Both the position numbers and the translations under genes were made by a program. The notes beneath the pieces are model-generated. The model had not been told where the DNA came from. It saw only the letters and a list, made by a program, of their open reading frames with translations, and ran no database searches. This document shows, one piece after another, positions 329 to 37,018 of a DNA stretch of 39,096 nucleotides. Within the stretch, counting starts at the first letter, position 1, and each line of letters starts with the position of its first letter. The stretch spans positions 1-39,096 of the forward strand of contig SHYN01000005.1 of the NCBI GenBank assembly GCA_009692785.1, in the 5' to 3' direction. The stretch is from Chloroflexota bacterium (GTDB lineage: Bacteria > Chloroflexota > Limnocylindria > P2-11E).

Positions 329-334
329 TAGGCT
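329..334 (+). promoter_or_regulatory. Candidate -10 element TAGGCT of a leaderless mreB promoter
   Basis: TAGGCT ends 6 bases before the mreB ATG, so transcription starting 6-7 bases downstream would begin at the start codon. The same hexamer at the same distance precedes polX (34832-34837). A weak TTGCGT lies 15 bases upstream at 308-313. The AGG at 335-337 could instead be a poor ribosome binding site. Confidence 0.45.
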
Positions 335-340
335 AGGTCC

Positions 341-13776: not shown

Positions 13777-14091
13777 CTACGGCGCACGCGGCGCAGGCGA
13801 ATCCTGTCGCACATGAAAGAGGCGCAGGAACGTGACGGGAGCGTCGCGCCGGCGTGGGTCGATGGCGTACCAGACGTAAAAGGGCGCGCGTCGAAGTCGG
13901 AGCTTCCGCAGGACCGGAGTGTCTTCGCGCGGGGCAGCACCGGCCTCCGGAAAGGTGGCGAGCAGGCCCTCGAGGTCGGCGAGATGCTCTTGAAGGACCG
14001 TGACCCAGGAGAGCTCCCGATGGCCCACGAGGTACGCGAGCTCCTTTGAGAGGTCACGCGCGAACTCATCCCGATACGCGATGCTCGGCAC
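13777..14091 (-). CDS. ParE/RelE-superfamily toxin of a type II toxin-antitoxin pair
   Basis: A 104-residue protein of the ParE/RelE fold. It begins IAYRDEFARDLSKELAYL, has a central helix (LADLEGLLATFPEAG) and ends with the typical beta strands RKLRLRRAPFYVWYAID and VTFLRLFHVRQD. Members either poison DNA gyrase (ParE) or cleave mRNA on ribosomes (RelE); the target cannot be told here. The start is GTG 14091, three bases after the antitoxin stop TAA, so translation is probably coupled. It is convergent with the kinase gene ending at 13684. The 92 bases between them show no gene or clear terminator. Confidence 0.82.
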   Translation of the reverse strand: MPSIAYRDEFARDLSKELAYLVGHRELSWVTVLQEHLADLEGLLATFPEAGAAPREDTPVLRKLRLRRAPFYVWYAIDPRRRDAPVTFLRLFHVRQDSPAPRAP

Positions 14092-14094
14092 CGG

Positions 14095-14442
14095 TTACCG
14101 GGGTCGCGCCATGGGCTCCCGCCCTGCCAGCGCGTCCGCGAAGATCCGCTGGATCTGCTCACGCGGTGCCGCGGCGCCCTTGCCCTGACGGAAGCGGTCC
14201 CAGGTGGCGTATGCCTGCTCGAACTGCCAGCGCTCCGCATGTGCAAGCTCGCGTTCGGTCTCGGCCTCGTCGAGATACTCAGAGACGACCATCCGGAGCG
14301 CCTCCGCTTCGGCCAGATTGCGCTGCTCGGCGAAGCGCCGCAGACGTAGCCGTAGCGGCTGCGGCATGCGGAAGTTGAGCGGCGACGTGGGTATGGTCGC
14401 TGCCTTCCGCGTACGCGTCTTCGCGTTGCCTCTCTCGCCCAT
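14095..14442 (-). CDS. Antitoxin partner with ribbon-helix-helix-like N-terminus
   Basis: A 115-residue basic protein upstream of the ParE-like toxin. The N-terminal segment LNFRMPQPLRLRLRRFAEQRNLAEAEALRMVVSEYLDEAE (about 21-60) has the strand-helix-helix pattern of CopG/Arc-type antitoxins; only its outline is recognised. The C-terminal half is a long charged helix that would wrap the toxin. ATG 14442 is chosen because AAGGA lies 8 bases upstream and an inverted repeat operator lies just before that; the longer upstream frame is the other frame of the SpoIID gene. It probably binds the operator at 14456-14472 and represses the pair. Confidence 0.78.
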   Translation of the reverse strand: MGERGNAKTRTRKAATIPTSPLNFRMPQPLRLRLRRFAEQRNLAEAEALRMVVSEYLDEAETERELAHAERWQFEQAYATWDRFRQGKGAAAPREQIQRIFADALAGREPMARPR

Positions 14443-14455
14443 TCGGCACGTCCTT

Positions 14456-14472
14456 GTAGTCGCTTTGACTAC
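14456..14472 (-). promoter_or_regulatory. Inverted-repeat operator of the toxin-antitoxin operon
   Basis: On the plus strand GTAGTC (14456-14461) and GACTAC (14467-14472) form a perfect 6-base inverted repeat with a 5-base spacer. It abuts a TACGAT hexamer read on the minus strand (14473-14478), a likely -10 element, so a protein bound here would cover the transcription start. Autoregulation by the antitoxin is the expected use. The AAGGA ribosome binding site follows at 14451-14455 (minus strand). Confidence 0.6.
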
Positions 14473-14483
14473 ATCGTACTCGG

Positions 14484-16004
14484 TCACCCCCCGCCGACCT
14501 GTGTGAGCGCGATCCCCTGGTAGTAGTGGGTGAGGATCTGCTCGTGGGTCGCCCCGGCCAGGGCCATGCCCTGGGCGCCCCACTGGCTCATCCCCACACC
14601 GTGGCCGAAGCCGCGACCGTCAAAGACCCAGCGGGCGGGCAGCCGGTAGCGGAAGGCCGAGGGGACGAACTCCTGCGGCTCCGAATCGGAGCCGGGGACC
14701 GGCGTGTAGAGGGTCCCGGCAAGCTCCGCACCGAGCACATCCATGTCGCGGAGCCGCACATCGTCGCGACGCGGCACATCCTCGCTCTCGTCGTTCGTGT
14801 GGAGCGCGACGGTGAACACACCGCTCTTCAGGCCAAAGTAGTAGCGGCTGCCGTCCTTACCGATGTCGCGCGAGCCGGCGCTGCCGATGACGCGCGAGCG
14901 AACAACGGTGCCGGACGCGGTCACCTGAAGGAGCTGGATCGTGCGCAGGTCCCCAACGTCGATGCCGCGTCGGGCCATGAACGTACGGAGCTGCTTCGGC
15001 GTGTATTCCAGATTCCAGGTGTATCCGTGCCGGCCCCAGTCGGACGCCAGGGCGACGCTGTCGCCGGGAGACGCCACGCCTCGCAGGTAGGGCAACGCGT
15101 TCGGGAACACGTTCTCGGAGTCCTCGGTCCGCCCGCCCGCGTTGGCGGAGTAGAGCGCCGAGATCGGAACCCCACGGTACGTCGCGACCACGCCCGCGGT
15201 CCGCCGGACCGCAAGGGTCGTCGACGGCGCCTCGCTCAGGACGCCGTCGTACTGCTGGTCGCGGGTGTCGCCCTCGAGGTCGTAGGCGTCGTGGCGATCC
15301 AGGTGGGTCAGGAGATATGTGCGGGCGGCGATCGCCTGAGCGGCAAGGGCTTCCGGCGCCCAGGAGGACGGGACCTCTGAGCCGACGACCGAGGCGAGGT
15401 ACTCGTTCGTGGCGACCGTGTTGACGACGATCATGTCCCCCTCGTCATCGCGCGCGATCTCCAGCGCCCCGCGAAACAGGCGGCCGTTGAAGGACAGGAA
15501 ACCGGCATCCGTCGCAAAGCGCACACCCACGATCGCACGCGCGGCGAGGAGCGGTGGCTCCGTCCCGTCATTGGCGTTCTCGAGGACCGCGACCTCGAAG
15601 GGGATCGTGGCGATCTCCGGCGCCACGGCGGTCGCCCGCTCGAGGCGCGCCTCGTGGAGCAGCGCGCGCAGGCTCAGCGGGTCCGCCGAGTCACCGGACG
15701 GTGGGATCTCCGCGCCGGTCGTCGTCCCGCGGCGCACGCCCAGGCGCACGAGGATCGGCGCGGGGCCACGGTAGAGCGTGCGGCCGTCGGGCGCGGTGAG
15801 CGTGAGCGTCGATGCGGAGGCGATGAGCACTTGACTGACCCCCAGTCCGGCGACGTTGACCCGGATCGTCGCGGGGAGCGCCGTCGCCGGCGCGCCGGAG
15901 GCGGGGGTCGCAAGCGCGGAGCTGGTGAAGATGACGAGCGCCGCCGCGAGCGCGAGCCGACGCGTTGAGGTCACCCCTCGCCACCGCGCTGCACGCTCGC
16001 CCAT
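14484..16004 (-). CDS. SpoIID/LytB-domain secreted protein
   Basis: A 506-residue exported protein with an N-terminal signal peptide (LALAAALVIFTSSALATPASGA, about 17-38). The SpoIID/LytB domain shows NEYLASVVGSEVPSSW (about 199-214), AAQAIAARTYLL, a long beta-rich centre with SANAGGRTEDSENVF, and the terminal block GRGFGHGVGMSQWGAQGMA (about 463-481). SpoIID family members are lytic transglycosylases acting on denuded glycan strands, or amidase enhancers (LytB). No sporulation genes surround it, so a cell-wall remodelling role in a non-sporulating cell is likely. Its ATG overlaps the hpt stop as TAATG. Roughly 100 residues between signal peptide and domain are beta-rich and unassigned. Confidence 0.9.
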   Translation of the reverse strand: MGERAARWRGVTSTRRLALAAALVIFTSSALATPASGAPATALPATIRVNVAGLGVSQVLIASASTLTLTAPDGRTLYRGPAPILVRLGVRRGTTTGAEIPPSGDSADPLSLRALLHEARLERATAVAPEIATIPFEVAVLENANDGTEPPLLAARAIVGVRFATDAGFLSFNGRLFRGALEIARDDEGDMIVVNTVATNEYLASVVGSEVPSSWAPEALAAQAIAARTYLLTHLDRHDAYDLEGDTRDQQYDGVLSEAPSTTLAVRRTAGVVATYRGVPISALYSANAGGRTEDSENVFPNALPYLRGVASPGDSVALASDWGRHGYTWNLEYTPKQLRTFMARRGIDVGDLRTIQLLQVTASGTVVRSRVIGSAGSRDIGKDGSRYYFGLKSGVFTVALHTNDESEDVPRRDDVRLRDMDVLGAELAGTLYTPVPGSDSEPQEFVPSAFRYRLPARWVFDGRGFGHGVGMSQWGAQGMALAGATHEQILTHYYQGIALTQVGGG

Positions 16005-16564
16005 TACGTGCTTCGGTAGATCTCTGGGCGGAGAACGCCGATGTAGGGCAGGTTGCGGTAGCGCTCGGCGTGATCGAGACCATACCCGACGACAAATTCA
16101 TCGGGGATCTCGAATCCCCGGTACTGGATCGAGATCGGCACGATGCGGCGCGCGGGCTTGTCGAGCAGCGCGCAGAGCTGCACCGAGGCAGGGTGTTGCC
16201 CGCGCAGATGCTCGAGCACGTAGTTGAGCGTGAAGCCCGTGTCGAGGACGTCTTCGATGACGAGCACATCGCGGCCCTCGATCGGGTGTGCGAGATCTTT
16301 GAGGATCCTGACGACCCCGCTTGATTCGGTGGCTCGTCCGTACGACGAGACCTCGAGGAAATCGACCGCCAGCGGAAGGGGAATGCGCCGCATGAGATCG
16401 GCCATGAACGGCAGCGAACCCTTGAGGACGCTGACGAGAATAAGGTCCTTGTTCTCATAGTCGGCCGCGATGCGCGCGCCCAACTCGGCGACCTTCGCCG
16501 CGATCGTCGCCTCATCGATGAGGATGCGTGCGATATCTTCCGCCGGGGGACGGAGCCTGATCAT
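16004..16564 (-). CDS. hpt: Hypoxanthine phosphoribosyltransferase
   Basis: A 186-residue purine salvage enzyme that makes IMP or GMP from hypoxanthine or guanine and PRPP in the cytoplasm. Seen: LVSVLKGSLPFMADL, the flexible-loop region DFLEVSSYG with the Ser-Tyr pair, the PRPP-binding VLVIEDVLDTGFTLNYV (about 97-113) and the C-terminal base-recognition segment FEIPDEFVVGYGLDHAERYRNLPYIGVL. ATG 16564 gives the usual family length; GTG 16594 would overlap the upstream gene by 16 bases and add ten unsupported residues. It shares its stop with the spoIID start. In many bacteria hpt precedes tilS or ftsH, but here it lies among envelope genes. Confidence 0.93.
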   Translation of the reverse strand: MIRLRPPAEDIARILIDEATIAAKVAELGARIAADYENKDLILVSVLKGSLPFMADLMRRIPLPLAVDFLEVSSYGRATESSGVVRILKDLAHPIEGRDVLVIEDVLDTGFTLNYVLEHLRGQHPASVQLCALLDKPARRIVPISIQYRGFEIPDEFVVGYGLDHAERYRNLPYIGVLRPEIYRST

Positions 16565-16578
16565 CGGTCGGGCAATTG

Positions 16579-16884
16579 TCACACGTACTTGCACGCGAGG
16601 GCGTCGACGTCGCGGCGGTAGAGCATTCGCAGGGTCATCCCGGGGTATCGCTCGCGGAACCGGCGCAGCTTGCCGTTCTTCTGCGTCACGAGCTGCTGGC
16701 GGAGGACCGTCAGCTCGACGTAAACGCCCTGCTCGGGGAGCCAGAAGTCGGGGGTGAATGCCTCTCGGACCGCGCCACCCGCGTCCTCGCGCAGCGCGAA
16801 CGTGTGCGGTTCGTATTCCCAGCGGATCCGGTAGAAGTCAAGAAGGCGAGCAAAGCGAGCCTCGCTGCGGTGGGCAAAACGCAC
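16579..16884 (-). CDS. Small conserved protein with PD-(D/E)XK-nuclease-like layout
   Basis: A 101-residue protein. SEARFARLLDFYRIRWEYEPHTF is followed by AFTPDFWLPEQGVYVELTVLRQ, then TQKNGKLRRFRERYPG and MLYRRDV. The order Glu helix, PDF-x-LP, strand with Glu, then Lys-rich helix matches PD-(D/E)XK restriction-like folds, but the expected E-x-K reads E-L-T, so the site is altered. I recall similar short proteins beside hpt in other high-GC bacteria, without known function. GTG 16884 is the start, 14 bases after the cupredoxin stop; its stop falls before ATG of hpt with a 14-base gap. Nuclease activity should not be assumed. Confidence 0.65.
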   Translation of the reverse strand: MRFAHRSEARFARLLDFYRIRWEYEPHTFALREDAGGAVREAFTPDFWLPEQGVYVELTVLRQQLVTQKNGKLRRFRERYPGMTLRMLYRRDVDALACKYV

Positions 16885-16898
16885 CCGGCGGCGCTGGG

Positions 16899-17612
16899 TC
16901 AGCGCGATCGCAGCCGCCAGACCGCACTCGCCCCGAGCGCAAGAATGAACGCCGCTCCACCGACGAGGAGCGCGTTCGGACCATCGGCCGCGGTCGGCGC
17001 GGAGGTCGTGGGCGCGGTCGTCGGCGCGGCCGCCGCGACCGCCGCGCTGATCGGGGCGGCCACCGGGGTGGGTGATGCGGAGGGTCGCGGGGCCGCGCTC
17101 GTCGCGGGCGCGGGCGCCGCTGGCGTGAGCGCGGGTGTCGGCGCGGCGACCGGTACCGCGACAGGTGCGGGTGTCGGCGCTGCCGTCGGTGCGGGCGTTG
17201 GTGTGGCGACCGGCGGCGGCGCCTGGGTCGGTGCGGGCGCCGGAGCCGGGGTGGGTGCGGCGGCGGCCGCGGCCGCCGCGGCGACGACCGTGATTATCCC
17301 TCTCATGCTCGAATGGAAGTCGCAGTGGTAGGCGAAGACGCCTGCCACGTTGAACGTGACGCTGCCCAGACCGCCGCCACCGCTCAGCATCTGGTTGAAC
17401 CCGGCGCTATCCGCGGTCGCAGTGTGCGCCGTTCCGTCGCGATTCGTCCAGGTCACCGTGTCTCCCACCGTGACGGTGAGGGTCGCCGGGCCGAAGGCGA
17501 AGCCCTGCACCGTCACCGGCTGCGTCGCGCCGAGCGCGACGAATGCCGGCAGCTCGAGCAGTACGAGTGCGAGAGGGACCGCGATGAGCCACGACGCGAT
17601 GCTCCTGGGCAC
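16899..17612 (-). CDS. Membrane-anchored cupredoxin (plastocyanin-like)
   Basis: A 237-residue exported protein. An N-terminal hydrophobic segment (SWLIAVPLALVLLELPAFVALGA) leads into a cupredoxin domain (about 33-110) with copper-ligand pattern: His in DGTAHTATAD (about 63) and Cys, His and Met in YHCDFHSSM (about 94-102). A tether of about 100 residues rich in Ala, Pro and Thr follows, then a C-terminal helix (ALLVGGAAFILALGASAVW) and RLRSR. It likely carries electrons or binds copper outside the membrane. GTG 17612 is preferred to ATG 17618 because the minus-strand TATCGT ends exactly 6 bases before it; both are possible. It diverges from rsmG. Confidence 0.85.
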   Translation of the reverse strand: MPRSIASWLIAVPLALVLLELPAFVALGATQPVTVQGFAFGPATLTVTVGDTVTWTNRDGTAHTATADSAGFNQMLSGGGGLGSVTFNVAGVFAYHCDFHSSMRGIITVVAAAAAAAAAPTPAPAPAPTQAPPPVATPTPAPTAAPTPAPVAVPVAAPTPALTPAAPAPATSAAPRPSASPTPVAAPISAAVAAAAPTTAPTTSAPTAADGPNALLVGGAAFILALGASAVWRLRSR

Positions 17613-17617
17613 ACGCA

Positions 17618-17624
17618 TACGATA
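17618..17624. promoter_or_regulatory. Symmetric TACGATA heptamer: -10 elements for both rsmG and the cupredoxin unit
   Basis: On the plus strand TACGAT (17618-17623) ends 7 bases before the rsmG GTG at 17631. On the minus strand TATCGT (17624-17619) ends 6 bases before the GTG at 17612. The two hexamers overlap in all but one base, so the same site would melt for transcription in either direction and both messages would be leaderless. No convincing -35 is seen on either side. Confidence 0.5.
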
Positions 17625-17630
17625 GCGGGA

Positions 17631-18362
17631 GTGCCAGCCGCGGCCGAGCTCCCTCTACCCTCCCTCACGGCCGAAGCCGCGCGTGTGGGGGTCATGCTCA
17701 CCCCGGTGCAGCTGACGCAGTGCGAGAGGTATGCGGCGCTTCTCCTCGAGCGGAATGGCACCGTCAACCTCACCGCGATCACCGATCCTGTCGAGGTCGC
17801 ACGCAAGCACTTTCTGGATTCGTTCACCGCGCTCGCGGCGCGGCACTGGTCCGGTCGAGAGCGTGTCGTGGATGTCGGCAGCGGCGCCGGTTTCCCTGGG
17901 CTCGCCCTCCGTATCGCTCTCCCGGGCATCCGGGTCAGCCTGATCGAATCGGTCGGCAAGAAGGCACGCTTCCTCGAGGAGGTCGTTGCGCTGCTCGGTC
18001 TTGACGGCGTCGAGGTCAGCAACGAGCGCGCCGAGGAGCTCGGCCGCACCCGCCGCGGCGTCTACGACGTGGGCACGATCCGAGCGGTCGGCTCGATCGG
18101 CGCCGATCTCGAGTATCTGCTGCCGTTCCTGCGGGTCGGCGGCGACGCGATCATCTGGAAAGGCCGGATCGATGCGGAGCAGGTCGGCGCGGAGCGTGCT
18201 CTTGCCGAGCTCGGCGGCGGTCCGCTCCAGATCACCGCCACGGTCGCGATCGGCTTGGGTGATGTCCTTCCGGGCCGCCATCTGGTCGTCGCGCGGAAGG
18301 TGCGGGTCACGCCGGACCGGTATCCACGACGCGCCCTCGACATGCGGAAGCGCCCGTGGTGA
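17631..18362 (+). CDS. rsmG: 16S rRNA (guanine527-N7)-methyltransferase RsmG
   Basis: A 243-residue class I methyltransferase that uses S-adenosylmethionine to methylate G527 in the 530 loop of 16S rRNA. The N-terminal part holds CERYAALLLERNGTVNLTAITD and VARKHFLDSF, typical of RsmG/GidB. The SAM site is VVDVGSGAGFPGLALRI (about 79-95), followed by LIESVGKKARFLEEV and a SNERAEEL segment. GTG 17631 is chosen because upstream codons overlap the divergent gene; ATG 17694 would cut into the first helix. It overlaps the HisA-like gene by a few bases. The gene is not next to the usual mnmG, parA or parB. Confidence 0.93.
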   Translation: MPAAAELPLPSLTAEAARVGVMLTPVQLTQCERYAALLLERNGTVNLTAITDPVEVARKHFLDSFTALAARHWSGRERVVDVGSGAGFPGLALRIALPGIRVSLIESVGKKARFLEEVVALLGLDGVEVSNERAEELGRTRRGVYDVGTIRAVGSIGADLEYLLPFLRVGGDAIIWKGRIDAEQVGAERALAELGGGPLQITATVAIGLGDVLPGRHLVVARKVRVTPDRYPRRALDMRKRPW

Positions 18363-19093
18363 TCATCCCGTCGGTGGACGTCCGGGGCGGGAAGGTGGCG
18401 TTCCGCACCCCCACCGTTGGCGCCGACGTCACGCCGGAGGACCTCGCGCGACGCTTCGTCGCGATGGGTGCGCGGGAGCTGCACCTTGTCGATCTTGATG
18501 GCGCTGAGACCGGCGAGCATCTGAATGCCGCGCTGCTCGGTCGCATCGCGCGTACCAGCGGCGTCACCTGCCGCCTCGCCGGCGGCATCGACTCGCTCGC
18601 CAAAGCGGGTGAGGCCCTCGAGGCCGGCTTTGCCGGCGTTCTCTTCTCGTCGGCGGTCTTCGGCGACGACACGCTCGTCGAACGCATCGCCACCACGCTC
18701 GGTGACGCGGCGACCGTCGAGCTGGAGACGGCGGAGGGCTGCCTCCAGCCGCGGGGCGGCGATCCGACACTCGCGGCGCGAGCGCGCGGCCGGACGATCG
18801 ACGATGCCGCTCGTGCGGCGGTCGACGCGGGGGTCCGGTCGCTCTATGTGATCGATGTCACGAGCGATGGCAGGCTGAGCGGGCCGGCGCTCGGGCTCCT
18901 TGAGCGGGTCCGAAGCTCGCTCGGACCTCGTGCGAACGGCGTGGCCTTCCACACTGGCGGCGGGATCCGCGACCTCACCGATCTCGGCCTTCTCGCGCGA
19001 TGGGGCGCCGCGTCCGCGGTCGTCGGGCGGGCACTCGCGGACCGGCGCTTCACGTACGAGGACGCCGTTGCCGCGGGGGAGGAGGTCCCGTGA
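18356..19093 (+). CDS. HisA-like TIM-barrel protein with altered catalytic residues
   Basis: A 245-residue homologue of HisA, the ProFAR isomerase of histidine synthesis. It keeps the first-strand Asp (IPSVDVRGGKVA), LHLVDLDGA, RLAGGIDSL and the C-terminal phosphate site TGGGIRDLTDL and VVGRAL. It departs elsewhere: the QGDY loop after strand 1 is missing; the second catalytic Asp aligns with Glu (VELETAEG); the W after it is absent; and the Thr of the Y/HTDI segment aligns with Ile (YVIDVTSDG). It may therefore not catalyse the HisA reaction. No other his gene is near. GTG 18356 or 18359 starts it, overlapping rsmG; it overlaps the next gene as GTGA. Confidence 0.8.
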   Translation: MVIIPSVDVRGGKVAFRTPTVGADVTPEDLARRFVAMGARELHLVDLDGAETGEHLNAALLGRIARTSGVTCRLAGGIDSLAKAGEALEAGFAGVLFSSAVFGDDTLVERIATTLGDAATVELETAEGCLQPRGGDPTLAARARGRTIDDAARAAVDAGVRSLYVIDVTSDGRLSGPALGLLERVRSSLGPRANGVAFHTGGGIRDLTDLGLLARWGAASAVVGRALADRRFTYEDAVAAGEEVP

Positions 19094-19809
19094 TCGTCGC
19101 GCTGCTCTCCGACATCCACGGCAACCTCATGGCACTGGAGGCCGTGCTCGGTGCGCTCCCACCGGTCGAGGGGCTCTGGGTCACCGGCGATACCGTCGGC
19201 TACGGCCCGGACCCGTCCGACGTCCTCGCGCTCCTCCGTGAACGCGGCGCGCTCATGGTCGCCGGGAACCACGACCGCGCCGTGGCGACCGGCGCGGGCC
19301 TCGCGCTCTTCAACCGGCACGCCGCCGACGCGGCGCGGCTCCACGCGGAGTGGCTGAGCGCGGAGGAGCGCGACGTGCTGGCCTCGTTGCCCGAGACGGC
19401 GGTGCGCGGCGCCTTCACGCTGTGTCACGGCAGCCTGCGTGATCCGCTCTGGGAGTACATGCAGACGCCCGGCGCGGCCGCCGCCAGCCTCGCCATCGCC
19501 GACACCGCTCACGGCTGCTGCGGCCACACCCATGTGCCGGCACTCTTCCGCGGCGGCTCCGAGGCGACCGTCCTCGTGCGACCCGCCGACGGAACCGTGT
19601 GGGACCTGGAGGAGCGGGCGTTCGTAAATCCAGGGAGCGTCGGGCAGCCCCGTGACGGCGATCCACGCGCCTCCTACGCGCTCATCGACCCTGAACGGGC
19701 AAGCGTGTCGTTCCACCGCGTCACCTACGCCGTGGCGGAGACGCAGCGCCGCATTCGGGCACAGAAACTGCCGGCCATCCTCGCGGACCGGCTCGCGCAC
19801 GGCCTCTGA
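19090..19809 (+). CDS. Calcineurin-like metallophosphoesterase (YfcE/MJ0936 type)
   Basis: A 239-residue dinuclear-metal phosphoesterase. Motifs in order: LLSDIHGNLMAL (about 5-16), WVTGDTVGYGPDP (about 36-48), VAGNHDRAV (about 56-64), TLCHGSLRDP (about 114-123) and CCGHTHVPALF (about 149-159), then FVNPGSVGQPRDGDPRASYAL typical of the YfcE-like subgroup. Such enzymes hydrolyse phosphodiesters or phosphomonoesters, but the natural substrate is rarely known. GTG 19090 overlaps the HisA-like stop. It ends the three-gene rsmG unit; the next 61 bases hold a small CCTGC/GCAGG inverted repeat and the promoter of the following gene. Confidence 0.88.
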   Translation: MIVALLSDIHGNLMALEAVLGALPPVEGLWVTGDTVGYGPDPSDVLALLRERGALMVAGNHDRAVATGAGLALFNRHAADAARLHAEWLSAEERDVLASLPETAVRGAFTLCHGSLRDPLWEYMQTPGAAAASLAIADTAHGCCGHTHVPALFRGGSEATVLVRPADGTVWDLEERAFVNPGSVGQPRDGDPRASYALIDPERASVSFHRVTYAVAETQRRIRAQKLPAILADRLAHGL

Positions 19810-19857
19810 TCTGCTCGAGCGACCCCCCCTGCCGCCGCAGGCGGCCCCGCACCCGAC

Positions 19858-19863
19858 AATAAT
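19858..19863 (+). promoter_or_regulatory. Candidate -10 element AATAAT before the permease pseudogene
   Basis: AATAAT ends 7 bases before TTG 19871. It differs from TATAAT at one base and is the most AT-rich hexamer near the gene. No -35 is evident. Spacing matches other leaderless heads in the window. It could still drive the downstream intact genes. Confidence 0.42.
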
Positions 19864-19870
19864 CAGGGGC

Positions 19871-21492
19871 TTGACCGAGGAGAACACCCCGCGCGAGGAC
19901 AACGTCGCCCACCAGGTGCGCCTCGAGCGTCTGCACGAGAAGCAGGGAATGCTGCTTGGTGATCGGCGCGTCCGAGTGGTGTGGCCCCGCGAGTTCAGGC
20001 GCGAAGGCGGGAACATCGTCGCGACCGAGGACGCGCTGGCGCCGCGAGGAAACGTCGAGCGCGTGCTCACCGCGGTCAAACGCGTGCTCGTCGGCCGACG
20101 CCTCGCGACCGAGGAGTCCGAGAGGCGGGACTGGTCTTCGCCGGCCCCACCTACCTGTATGTCGCGACGCTGCTCAGCCTGGTCGGCTTCGGGTTCTGGC
20201 GGGTCGCCACGGGTGCTGTCCCGATCCCCGCGACGCCACTCGAGACGTTCCCCGCCGCGGGCACTGAGGCGCTCACGATCTTCCTCGTGCTGAAGGCGTT
20301 CTCCTCAGGCTCGGTGGGTCTCTCGGGGACCGAGGCGGTCGCGAACGGCGTGCCCGCGTTCAAACGCCCAGAGTCACGGAACGCAGGCATCGTCCTGATC
20401 GTCATGGGCGCGCTCTTCGGCACGCTCTTCTTCGCCGTCTCCTACCTTGCCACGCGGATCGGTGTCCAGCCCGACCTCACCGAGACGCAGACCGTCCTGA
20501 GCCTCCTGGGCCGGTCGCTCGTCGGCGAGGGTCCGTACTTCTACCTCCTCCAGGCGTCGACCGCGGTCATTCTCATCCTCGCCGCGAACACGTCCTTCAG
20601 CGGTTTTCCGCGTCTCGCCTCGATCCTCGCGAACGATCGATTCATGCCGCGGCAATTCGCCCAGCGCGGTGAGCGCCTCGCGTTCACCGCCGGCATTGTC
20701 GCGCTCGCGCTCCTCGCCGCGCTCCTCGTGTTCCTCTACGACGGGAGTGTCACCGGCCTCATTCCGCTCTACACGATCGGCGTGTTCGTGGCGTTCTCGC
20801 TCTCGCAGGCGGGGATGGTCCGGCGCTGGGCGCGCATGCGCACGCGAGGCTGGCTCGCGAGCGCCGCGATCAACGCTCTGGGAGCGGTCGTCACGACCGT
20901 CGTGGCGGTGATCGTGGCGGTTACGAAGTTCGCGCTCGGCGCCTGGCTCGTCATCGCCGTCCTTCCCCTTGTCGTCATCGGGCTTTACGCGATCCACCGG
21001 CATTACCGCTACATGGAGGATCGCCTCATGGTGCCTCTGGGCACCGTGGCGCACCTGGTCCCGACCCGCCCGCGGGTCATCGTCCCGGTCAGCCGCCTCG
21101 ACCGGCCCGCGCTGCTCGCGCTCAGCATCGCGCGAGGGCTCGGCGGCGACCTCGCCGCGGTGCACATCTCCTACGACGAAGATGGCGCCCCAGGGGCCGG
21201 CTCCGCTGGGCCCAGAGCGTGGGGACGGACATCCGCCTCGACACCGTCATTTCACCCTATCGTGCTGTCATCAAGCCGCTGCTCAAGTACATCGACGCCA
21301 TCGACGCAAGGAGACCCGCGCCGCCCAGTGGTCGTGGTCTTGGCCGAATTCGTCCCGCGCCACTGGTGGGAGGCGATCCTCGACAATCAGACGGCGCTGC
21401 TCATGAAGCTCCGGTTGTTCGTCCGCCCGAACACTGTGGTCGTGGATGTCCCCTTCCACCTCGCCGACGGGGCAGCGGACGCAGAAGCATGA
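19871..21492 (+). pseudogene. Decayed KimA-like APC-superfamily potassium permease (paralogue of the next gene)
   Basis: From TTG 19871 the frame encodes the same N-terminal cytoplasmic domain as the downstream permease (LGDRRVRVVW, FRREGGNIVATED, VLVGRRLATEESE). At about 20126 it jumps to sequence matching REAGLLFALPTY far downstream in the paralogue, now in another frame. About 430 bases covering the first several helices are missing, with a TCCGAGAG-like microhomology at the join. The remainder keeps SGTEAVANGVPAFK, SGFPRLASILAND and LIPLYTIGVFVAFSLSQ. In the USP-like tail the frame shifts near 21190-21205 (homology continues as RLRWAQSVGTDIRLD) and is restored near 21310-21335 (VVVVLAEFVPRHWWE). 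It cannot make a full transporter; the stop is at 21492. Confidence 0.85.
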
Positions 21493-21499
21493 GGGCGGG

Positions 21500-23575
21500 A
21501 TGACAGGTCCGCCGGACCACGAGTCCAACTCACCGTCGCTCGAGGGACGCGAGACGCAGACCGGGCGTCTCCCGGGTGACCGCTACGTCCGCATCGTCCA
21601 CCACGCGTCAGGCGAATTCCGAAGGCAGGGTGGTCGCTACGTCGCGACCGAGGAGATCGACCGGCCGCTCGATTGGGGCGGACGCGCCCGGAGCGCAATA
21701 CGGCGCGTCCTTATCGGGCGACGCCTTTCGACCGAGGCCGAGGCCGAGGAACGGGTCTCGAAGAAGACCGGACTCGCGATCCTTGCCTCGGACAACATCT
21801 CGTCGTCGGCGTACGCGACCGAGGAGGCGATGCGCGTGCTCGCGCTCGCCGGGGCCGGTGCCTTGGCGCTCACCATGCCGGTCGCGCTGGCGGTGGTCGC
21901 GGTTCTCGGCATTGTCATCCTTAGCGAGTCGCGCGTGATCCGTGCGTATCCGGGCGGCGGCGGTTCGTACATCGTTGCCAAGGAGAACCTGGGGGTCATT
22001 CCCGGACTCATCGCTGCTTCGGCGCTTCTCATCGATTACGTCCTGACGGTGGCCGTGTCCACCGCCGCGGGCGTTGCCGCCCTCTCGAGCTTCGCGCCAG
22101 CGCTCCACGAGGACCGCGTGGTCTGGGCGCTCCTGCTTATCGCGCTCCTCACCGTCGGCAATTTGCGCGGCATCCGTGAGGCCGGTCTGCTCTTCGCCCT
22201 GCCGACCTACGCCTACATGCTCGCGCTGTTCGCCCTGATCGCGGTGGGGCTGTGGCGCGTGCTGTCGGGTGACGTTCCGACGGCGGTCCTGCCCACGGCG
22301 AGTCTTGAAAGTCAGGGTGTGACGGTCCTGTCGACCCTGCTCGTGCTTCGCGCCTTTGCCTCGGGTGCGGTCGGGCTCACCGGCAGTGAGGCGGTGGCCA
22401 ACGGGGTCCCCAGCTTCAAGCCGCCCGAGTCGCGGAATGCGGCGATCACGCTCGTCGTCATGGGCTCCTGCTTCGCCGCGCTGTTCCTTGGTGTCACGTT
22501 CCTCGCAACGAGCATCGGGATCCAACCGGACCACAGCGAAGTCGAAACGGTGAACAGCATGCTCACGCGCTCCATCGTCGGCAGCGGCACGCCCTTCTAC
22601 TACTTCGTGCAGGTCACCACGGCGGTCATCCTGCTGCTCGCCGCCAACACCGGGTTCTCGGGCTTTCCGCGCCTCGCTTCCATCCTCGCGCACGACAGAT
22701 TCCTGCCGCGGCAGTTCTCTTTCCGGGGCGATCGGTTGGCCTTCTCGACCGGGATCGTCGCGCTCGCGGTGATGGCGGCGATCGTGCTCGTCGCATTCGG
22801 TGGGAGCGTCACGAACCTCATCCCGCTGTACACCATCGGCGTCTTCCTCGCGTTCACCCTCTCGCAGACCGGCCTCGTCCGCCGCTGGTGGAAGCTTCGG
22901 AATCCCGGTTGGCGCGCGAGCATGGCGATCAACACCCTTGGCGGGACGGTCACAGGAGTCGTGCTCGTCGTGGTCGCGGTCACGAAATTCGCGCTGGGCG
23001 CCTGGATGGTGCTGCTCCTGCTGCCTGCGCTCGTCCTGGTGCTCTCGGCGATCAACCGGCACTACAACGCGATCGCCGACGCCCTCACCCTTCCCGATCT
23101 CTCGGTGCCGATCCCGGTTCCCGGCGCCCCGGTCGTGATCGTCCCCATCGCGCGACTCGACCGCGCCGCGGTCAAGGCGATCGGCTATGCGCGATCGATC
23201 TCCCCGCGCGTTCGCGCCGTGCACATCTCGTACGATCCCGAGGGCGCGGCAGCCTTCCGCGCGCGATGGGAACGCTGGGTCACCCAGGTGCCGCTTGACG
23301 TGATCGAGTCGCCGTACCGGTCACTCGTGCCGCCGCTCCTGCGGTACATCGACAGGGTCGCGGAGCGTGAGGGCCAGCAGATCACCGTGGTCCTTTCCGA
23401 GTTCGTTCCGCGAAACTGGTGGGAGTTCGTCCTGCACAGCCAGACAGCACTCCGCGTGAAGGCGAGCCTGCTCTTCCGGGCAAATACGGTCGTGGTCGAT
23501 GTGCCGATCCACTTTGAGGACATCATTCGCGACCTGGCGGCGGACGAGGCGTCGAAGGTCGGTCCAGCGCACTAA
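21500..23575 (+). CDS. KimA-like APC-superfamily potassium permease with USP-like C-terminal domain
   Basis: A 691-residue transporter. Residues 1-85 are a soluble N-terminal domain; then KKTGLAILASDNISSSAYATEE opens the APC (LeuT-fold) core of about twelve helices, with YPGGGGSYIVAKENLG, LIDYVLTVAVS, GSEAVANGVPSFKPPESRN and FSGFPRLASILAHDRFLPRQF. From about 530 a cytoplasmic USP-like alpha/beta domain follows (VVIVPIARLD, VRAVHISYD, VVLSEFVPRNWWE). This is the layout of KimA (B. subtilis) and Rv2690c-type permeases. Two TrkA-type proteins follow, as with ceoB and ceoC in mycobacteria, supporting potassium uptake. ATG 21500 has GAGGGCGGG just upstream. The ion is inferred, not shown. Confidence 0.85.
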   Translation: MTGPPDHESNSPSLEGRETQTGRLPGDRYVRIVHHASGEFRRQGGRYVATEEIDRPLDWGGRARSAIRRVLIGRRLSTEAEAEERVSKKTGLAILASDNISSSAYATEEAMRVLALAGAGALALTMPVALAVVAVLGIVILSESRVIRAYPGGGGSYIVAKENLGVIPGLIAASALLIDYVLTVAVSTAAGVAALSSFAPALHEDRVVWALLLIALLTVGNLRGIREAGLLFALPTYAYMLALFALIAVGLWRVLSGDVPTAVLPTASLESQGVTVLSTLLVLRAFASGAVGLTGSEAVANGVPSFKPPESRNAAITLVVMGSCFAALFLGVTFLATSIGIQPDHSEVETVNSMLTRSIVGSGTPFYYFVQVTTAVILLLAANTGFSGFPRLASILAHDRFLPRQFSFRGDRLAFSTGIVALAVMAAIVLVAFGGSVTNLIPLYTIGVFLAFTLSQTGLVRRWWKLRNPGWRASMAINTLGGTVTGVVLVVVAVTKFALGAWMVLLLLPALVLVLSAINRHYNAIADALTLPDLSVPIPVPGAPVVIVPIARLDRAAVKAIGYARSISPRVRAVHISYDPEGAAAFRARWERWVTQVPLDVIESPYRSLVPPLLRYIDRVAEREGQQITVVLSEFVPRNWWEFVLHSQTALRVKASLLFRANTVVVDVPIHFEDIIRDLAADEASKVGPAH

Positions 23576-37011: not shown

Positions 37012-37018
37012 TATAGTA
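37012..37018. promoter_or_regulatory. Symmetric TATAGTA heptamer between divergent genes
   Basis: The plus strand offers TATAGT (37012-37017) toward purH, and the minus strand TACTAT (37018-37013), which ends 8 bases before the ATG at 37004. This is the same one-base-offset arrangement as at 17618-17624. Toward purH the message would carry a leader of about 40 bases containing a GGAGGG ribosome binding site at 37055-37060. Confidence 0.45.

Follow-up and report, generated by a model that had tools for sequence, protein, structure and literature searches.

A shared TACGATA heptamer as a candidate bidirectional core promoter for leaderless rsmG and cupredoxin messages in a Chloroflexota family

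The window, by which we mean the whole 39,096-nucleotide stretch of Chloroflexota contig SHYN01000005.1, contains two divergently transcribed gene sets, one beginning with rsmG (transcribed rightwards) and the other with a cupredoxin gene (transcribed leftwards). The features of the two predicted operons and of the sequence between them are as follows.

14484–16004, minus strand: SpoIID-domain protein gene (PF08486).
16004–16594, minus strand: hpt-like phosphoribosyltransferase gene (PF00156).
16579–16884, minus strand: gene for a conserved 101-aa protein with homologues in relatives and no Pfam family, presumed to share the cupredoxin transcript.
16899–17612, minus strand: cupredoxin gene (PF00127, E 5e-8/PF13473), predicted to be leaderless from GTG 17612, with a rival start at ATG 17618–17616.
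17619–17624 (read 17624–17619), minus strand: predicted -10 hexamer TATCGT for the cupredoxin gene, with a spacer of 6 to GTG 17612–17610.
17618–17624, no strand: shared heptamer TACGATA, in which A17619/T17623 are the predicted -11A/-7T of one strand and, through their partners, the -7T/-11A of the other.
17618–17623, plus strand: predicted -10 hexamer TACGAT for rsmG, with a spacer of 7 to GTG 17631; present in 25/25 family and order loci and matching a clade-wide signature.
17631–18362, plus strand: rsmG, 16S rRNA methyltransferase G (PF02527, E 1e-39), predicted to be leaderless from GTG 17631.
18356–19093, plus strand: hisA-like gene (PF00977), which overlaps rsmG by coordinates and is presumed to be on the same transcript.
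19090–19809, plus strand: metallophosphoesterase gene (PF12850), presumed to be on the rsmG transcript.

The cupredoxin has a signal-peptide-like start, and GTG 17612 is in frame. Home-made gene calls had placed an antisense ORF over the cupredoxin gene and the rsmG start at ATG 17694; Pfam matches and homology contradicted both calls, which were discarded. A second cupredoxin gene is found farther down the same minus-strand operon at seven loci in relatives (L002, L005, L012, L013, L022, L023 and L025), and we note that in the ORF list two neighbouring permease-like frames of the window (19981–21492 and 21500–23575) have the look of tandem paralogues. Scanning the window for Rfam families and tRNAs gave no matches, and no relative was found in a viral sequence collection.

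Read directly, positions 17610–17633 are CACACGCATACGATAGCGGGAGTG. The plus-strand TACGAT and minus-strand TATCGT have five of six bases in common, and the preliminary description of this DNA was exact in reporting hexamers that overlap in all but one base, each 6–7 bases from a GTG (17631 and 17612). Because A17619 and T17623 each pair with the T and A of the other strand, they supply the -11A and -7T of both predicted promoters, which are thus reciprocally base paired. No TTGACA-like hexamer was found 15–19 bp from either -10. There is no Shine-Dalgarno sequence at a usable distance before 17631, the upstream sequence being GCATACGATAGCGGGA with GGGA directly against the GTG, and a purine-rich stretch was looked for upstream of GTG 17612 and not found. 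The minus-strand ORF includes a further ATG at 17618–17616, omitted from the preliminary description, which touches the minus hexamer (spacer 0) and has no Shine-Dalgarno sequence ahead of it.

The TANNNT signature before start codons is general in this clade. A sample of approximately 1.10 Mb from seven genomes, with genes called by a simple codon-usage caller, contains 1,099 starts and 112 divergent pairs with gaps of up to 250 bases. TANNNT is present at spacers of 6, 7, 8 and 9 before 60, 34, 24 and 33 of these starts, respectively, a total of 151/1,099 where about 15 are expected; the background at spacers 15–39 averages 3.7 per position, and four permuted motifs show no peak before starts. 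As the starts are roughly called, the real TANNNT-linked share is probably higher. The rsmG and cupredoxin spacers (7 and 6) both lie inside this 6–9 peak. Leaderless genes are reported from 4 of 12 Chloroflexi genomes, with a mean of 4.7%, in an excerpt of a published survey (PMC3160421).

We found 25 RsmG loci, in 24 of the 28 family genomes and the single other genome of the order; the counts are without class-level RsmG matches lacking a locus and without class-level loci L026–L030, where cupredoxin is absent at the site. TANNNT precedes rsmG in all 25 loci, at spacers of 6 (n = 2), 7 (18), 8 (3), 9 (1) and 10 (1). The number of residues ahead of the conserved N-terminal stretch varies among these loci, and the same start spacing is found despite the differing N-terminal length. 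From its sequence context, rsmG is very likely leaderless and transcribed from TACGAT. Loci L026–L030, which belong to another family of the class, have a conserved GGGAAGACCGAAA-like stretch followed by a GGAGGCATTT-like sequence upstream of rsmG.

The cupredoxin gene starts at the site in 19 of the 25 loci. TANNNTA is kept in 16 of these, including L024 from another family of the same order, and the core is CGA in 11, CTT in three, CCC in one and GTC in one; the final A is lost in L010, L017 and L020. The preliminary description held that loss of TANNNTA in close relatives with unchanged gene order would refute a shared heptamer; the motif persists in 16/19 such loci and fails in three. An in-frame GTG or ATG lies at a spacer of 6–9 in 14/16 cupredoxin loci with the heptamer (GTG at 6 in 12, GTG at 7 in one and ATG at 9 in one), compared to 0/3 without the seventh A. 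The two misfits, L022 and L023, keep TACGATA and have GTA and CTA in place of the GTG, with no start at 6–9. In L021 the cupredoxin gene is gone, and the TTG that opens an hpt-like frame lies at a spacer of 9 from the same heptamer. Across all loci the seventh base is A in 15/15 with an in-frame minus-strand start at 6–9 and in 2/10 without (p = 4e-5); the rows are related and the seventh base needs just three changes on the RsmG tree, so that Fisher values overstate independence. The seventh A is present in 17 loci, one of which lacks cupredoxin at the site, and absent in eight, five of which lack it.

The spacer-0 ATG occurs in 15/19 cupredoxin loci, among them all five that lack a start at 6–9, and in 1/6 loci without cupredoxin at the site, a distribution from which the ATG looks used. 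A message starting at 17612 would exclude it. This ATG may be a real start in some species, with a different promoter, or may be a second start. The cupredoxin gene is predicted to be leaderless from the shared heptamer, and we grade this as likely, as opposed to very likely for rsmG, because the spacer-0 ATG is conserved. The preliminary proposal of leaderless messages in both directions from one heptamer thus holds in part: the rsmG side agrees in 25/25 loci and the cupredoxin start in 14/16, but the conserved ATG (15/19) and the misfit of L022 and L023 limit the support.

In ten of the 19 cupredoxin loci the ATG at 0 occurs together with a start at 6–9, as would be expected if there were two minus-strand starts, with a leaderless message from GTG 17612 and a longer, leadered one that arises at an upstream promoter and is translated from ATG 17618. 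There is precedent in Zymomonas, where about half of the leaderless units are also leadered according to an excerpt of PMC7566282, and such an arrangement is compatible with the bidirectional reading as far as the shared box is concerned. No upstream minus-strand promoter was found, however; a sigma-70 scan of positions 14000–20000 that included -35 boxes detected a single promoter-like site, which is on the plus strand and away from the heptamer. We consider this arrangement conceivable but on the unlikely side.

Slightly less probable again is a promoter that acts in one direction, with TACGAT serving leaderless rsmG only and the cupredoxin message arising from inside rsmG and being read from ATG 17618–17616; the seventh A would then be inherited, or constrained merely by its nearness to that ATG. 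The invariant rsmG -10 (25/25) and the frequent ATG (15/19) agree with this, L010, L017 and L020 have the ATG without a minus-strand -10, and no other reading accommodates L022 and L023. Against it, the ATG at 0 is missing from L002, L005, L014 and L024, which keep a GTG at 6–7, the A stayed through changes of the core, the ATG lacks a Shine-Dalgarno sequence, and hpt appears to have been recruited to the same heptamer in L021. Such an A is also rare elsewhere. Among the 151 TANNNT boxes at spacers 6–9 the next base is A in 5/121 where the neighbour is co-oriented, distant or missing and in 7/30 where a divergent neighbour lies within 60 bases (p = 0.0024, with a shared box countable from both genes), so that A after TANNNT is disfavoured where no second promoter requires it. 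A TAGGCTA at window positions 329–335, with ATG 341 six bases after TAGGCT, has no clear divergent gene leftward and carries a seventh A without an obvious partner.

The expected number of such sites was estimated for the pattern CAY/TANNNTA/RTG with spacers of 6–8, using 200 first-order shuffles; a first pattern guess had no match in the organism's own genome. The window has one site where the shuffle mean is 0.01 (reported P 0.01), and the 505,745 bp of the organism's own genome have three where 0.2 are expected, all three at divergent gene pairs. In the 28 family genomes, CAY-N5-TANNNTA-N5-RTG (spacers 6/6) occurs at 24 distinct sites, compared to six for reversed-pattern controls (p = 0.0014), and CAY-N5-TANNNTA-N6-RTG (spacers 6/7) at 42 compared to 27 (p = 0.09). 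The 6/6 pattern gave 8 sites and 7 reversed in 15 genomes of the same class or order, and was not enriched in 133 other genomes of the phylum (309 and 489 reversed). Of 66 distinct pattern sites, 47 were obtained as loci and examined; 38 of these lie between two frames that are each the best coding frame of their stretch, and 11 are the rsmG site itself. Sites found through the pattern are unusable as proof that the pattern is conserved. In the 1.10-Mb sample, at spacers 6–9, TANNNTA lies between coding starts in 5/6 cases and eleven decoy motifs in 3/52. Once one box exists, chance favours sharing, since the shared register costs one extra base, but two start codons happening to flank one -10 in AT-poor DNA is a very improbable account of the site, and chance as the whole explanation is rejected on the shuffles (0.01 expected per window), the decoy motifs and the conservation across genera.

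The preliminary description treated the site as one extreme case, and here it needs revision, as the site is one of several of its kind in the family. In the own-genome sample, an automatic search picked out TACTCTA in the gap separating dnaJ from a membrane-protein gene and TAGAGTA in that separating a rhodanese gene from an HTH_67 gene. Pairs that recur by mutual BLAST are rsmG/cupredoxin, Peripla_BP_2/72-aa protein, plsY/HIT, a 58-aa AhpC/TSA-like frame/67-aa protein, and rpoN/501-aa frame.

The plsY and dnaJ loci were collected by protein search, so there was no selection for a box. Among 22 strong plsY loci (not counting L319–L326, which are weak or partial matches), a divergent HIT gene is present in 17, and all 17 have NANNNTN with starts at 6–9 on both sides; TANNNTA is complete in seven and TA is present on one side only in ten. 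Among 25 dnaJ loci (not counting L196–L200, which are weak partial matches), the left gene is present in 18, and 17 of these have a NANNNTN 7-mer with wider spacers, of 4–10 and 5–10; L186 fits by eye only. The dnaJ 7-mer is mostly GATAATG, in which the -12T is gone on both strands and the A and T are retained. NANNNTN is a weak motif, with a chance estimate of about one in ten for a given pair, and the plsY and dnaJ evidence therefore rests on its repetition in related genomes. Where the divergent gene is absent (L189–L193), several dnaJ loci have TGAGAAACT or TGAGACACT six bases before a GTG, which are extended -10 (TGN) boxes with the -12T replaced, and the cofE loci of the same genera have TGCCACACT.

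There is another register, ANNNTANNNT, in which two bases are shared, with three sites across the samples. A DAHP synthase/hexapeptide (carbonic-anhydrase-like) pair has this register in the own genome and TATCGTA in G009 (L223 compared with L296), and so shows two ways of sharing. A cofE pair with the ANNNTANNNT register in G004 was set aside, as by eye it is not conserved in the other 19 cofE loci, of which L220 is misanchored and unreadable. The window itself has a second shared heptamer, TATAGTA at 37012–37018, between a small membrane-like gene on the minus strand (ATG, spacer 8) and plus-strand purH. purH looks leadered, with GGAGGG ahead of GTG 37065, and of the two messages from this heptamer one may be leaderless and the other have a Shine-Dalgarno sequence.

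We propose that TACGATA is a bidirectional core promoter with a leaderless message each way, and put the probability of this at about 0.68 on the sequence comparisons described. RNA polymerase with the housekeeping sigma factor would bind in either orientation, with no recognisable -35 box, and RNA would start 6–7 bases past the hexamer, at the G of GTG 17631 in one direction and the G of GTG 17612 in the other, 19 bp apart. Both messages would be leaderless, with ribosomes initiating at the 5' GTG, and some 18 bp would be the entire core control of two operons. Points counted against this are the spacer-0 ATG, L022 and L023, the absence of the seventh A in L010, L017 and L020, and the 42 and 27 sites at spacers 6/7.

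Divergent initiation from symmetric -10 sequences is, as the preliminary description said, known in bacteria (excerpts of PMC10268837 and PMC12825309). In the excerpted parts of these E. coli and Salmonella studies, the commonest bidirectional promoter has reciprocally paired -7T and -11A and start sites usually 18 bp apart (PMC10268837), and opposing polymerases are unable to bind simultaneously (PMC12825309). The present site resembles these in its reciprocal -11A/-7T, its divergent genes and a predicted start-site distance of 19 bp (about 18 bp there, with 7–25 bp as the range for such promoters). The geometry matches, and the two polymerases here would be expected to exclude each other. 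It differs from them, as far as the excerpts go, in having a start codon tied to the box on each side, in having no other element between the genes and in being conserved across genera; searches within the two papers found no mention of leaderless messages or leaders. The TANNNT leaderless genes described in parts of PMC3160421 and PMC12340547 are similar in the position of the first T about 12 bases before the start, the GC-rich genome and the missing Shine-Dalgarno sequence, but as described there have one gene per box, and the words 'divergent' and 'bidirectional' do not occur in either paper.

The nearest case is prpD/Rv1129c of M. tuberculosis, divergent neighbours for which both leaderless messages were mapped; the excerpt of PMC3898074 describes closely juxtaposed divergent promoters as common in M. 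tuberculosis and does not state one common -10 for this pair. The M. tuberculosis lysG/lysE promoters also overlap divergently and include one leaderless start, but according to the excerpt of PMC5648196 have a 108-bp intergenic region and a regulator site, and the leaderless start does not belong to the overlapping promoter. No report of leaderless messages both ways from one -10 was found in the literature covered, which is partial and mostly leaves out subscription journals. Bidirectional promoters and leaderless genes are each known already, and what is described here is a variant, their conserved fusion.

Whether the arrangement is general is an evenly balanced question. Symmetric -10 boxes flanked on both sides by leaderless starts could equally well be, or not be, a standard and selected design for divergent pairs in this Chloroflexota family. 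With the same even odds, that design would take in rsmG/cupredoxin, HIT/plsY, dnaJ/membrane protein, periplasmic binding protein/small protein and others. If so, the heptamer could, with the odds again level, determine both start sites and both start codons and force the polymerase into one direction or the other, and there is an equal chance that the operons have no further regulatory DNA between them.

If the proposal is true, it would show purifying selection acting on bidirectional promoters for the making of mRNA both ways, and the heptamer with its two starts would be close to the minimum control region that two operons can have. The choice of polymerase orientation would be testable in a 19-bp piece of DNA, and one motif would annotate divergent gene starts in this clade. 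The counts of the seventh A and of cupredoxin at the site further raise the prospect that a single-base loss could first uncouple a neighbouring gene and later lead to its disappearance.
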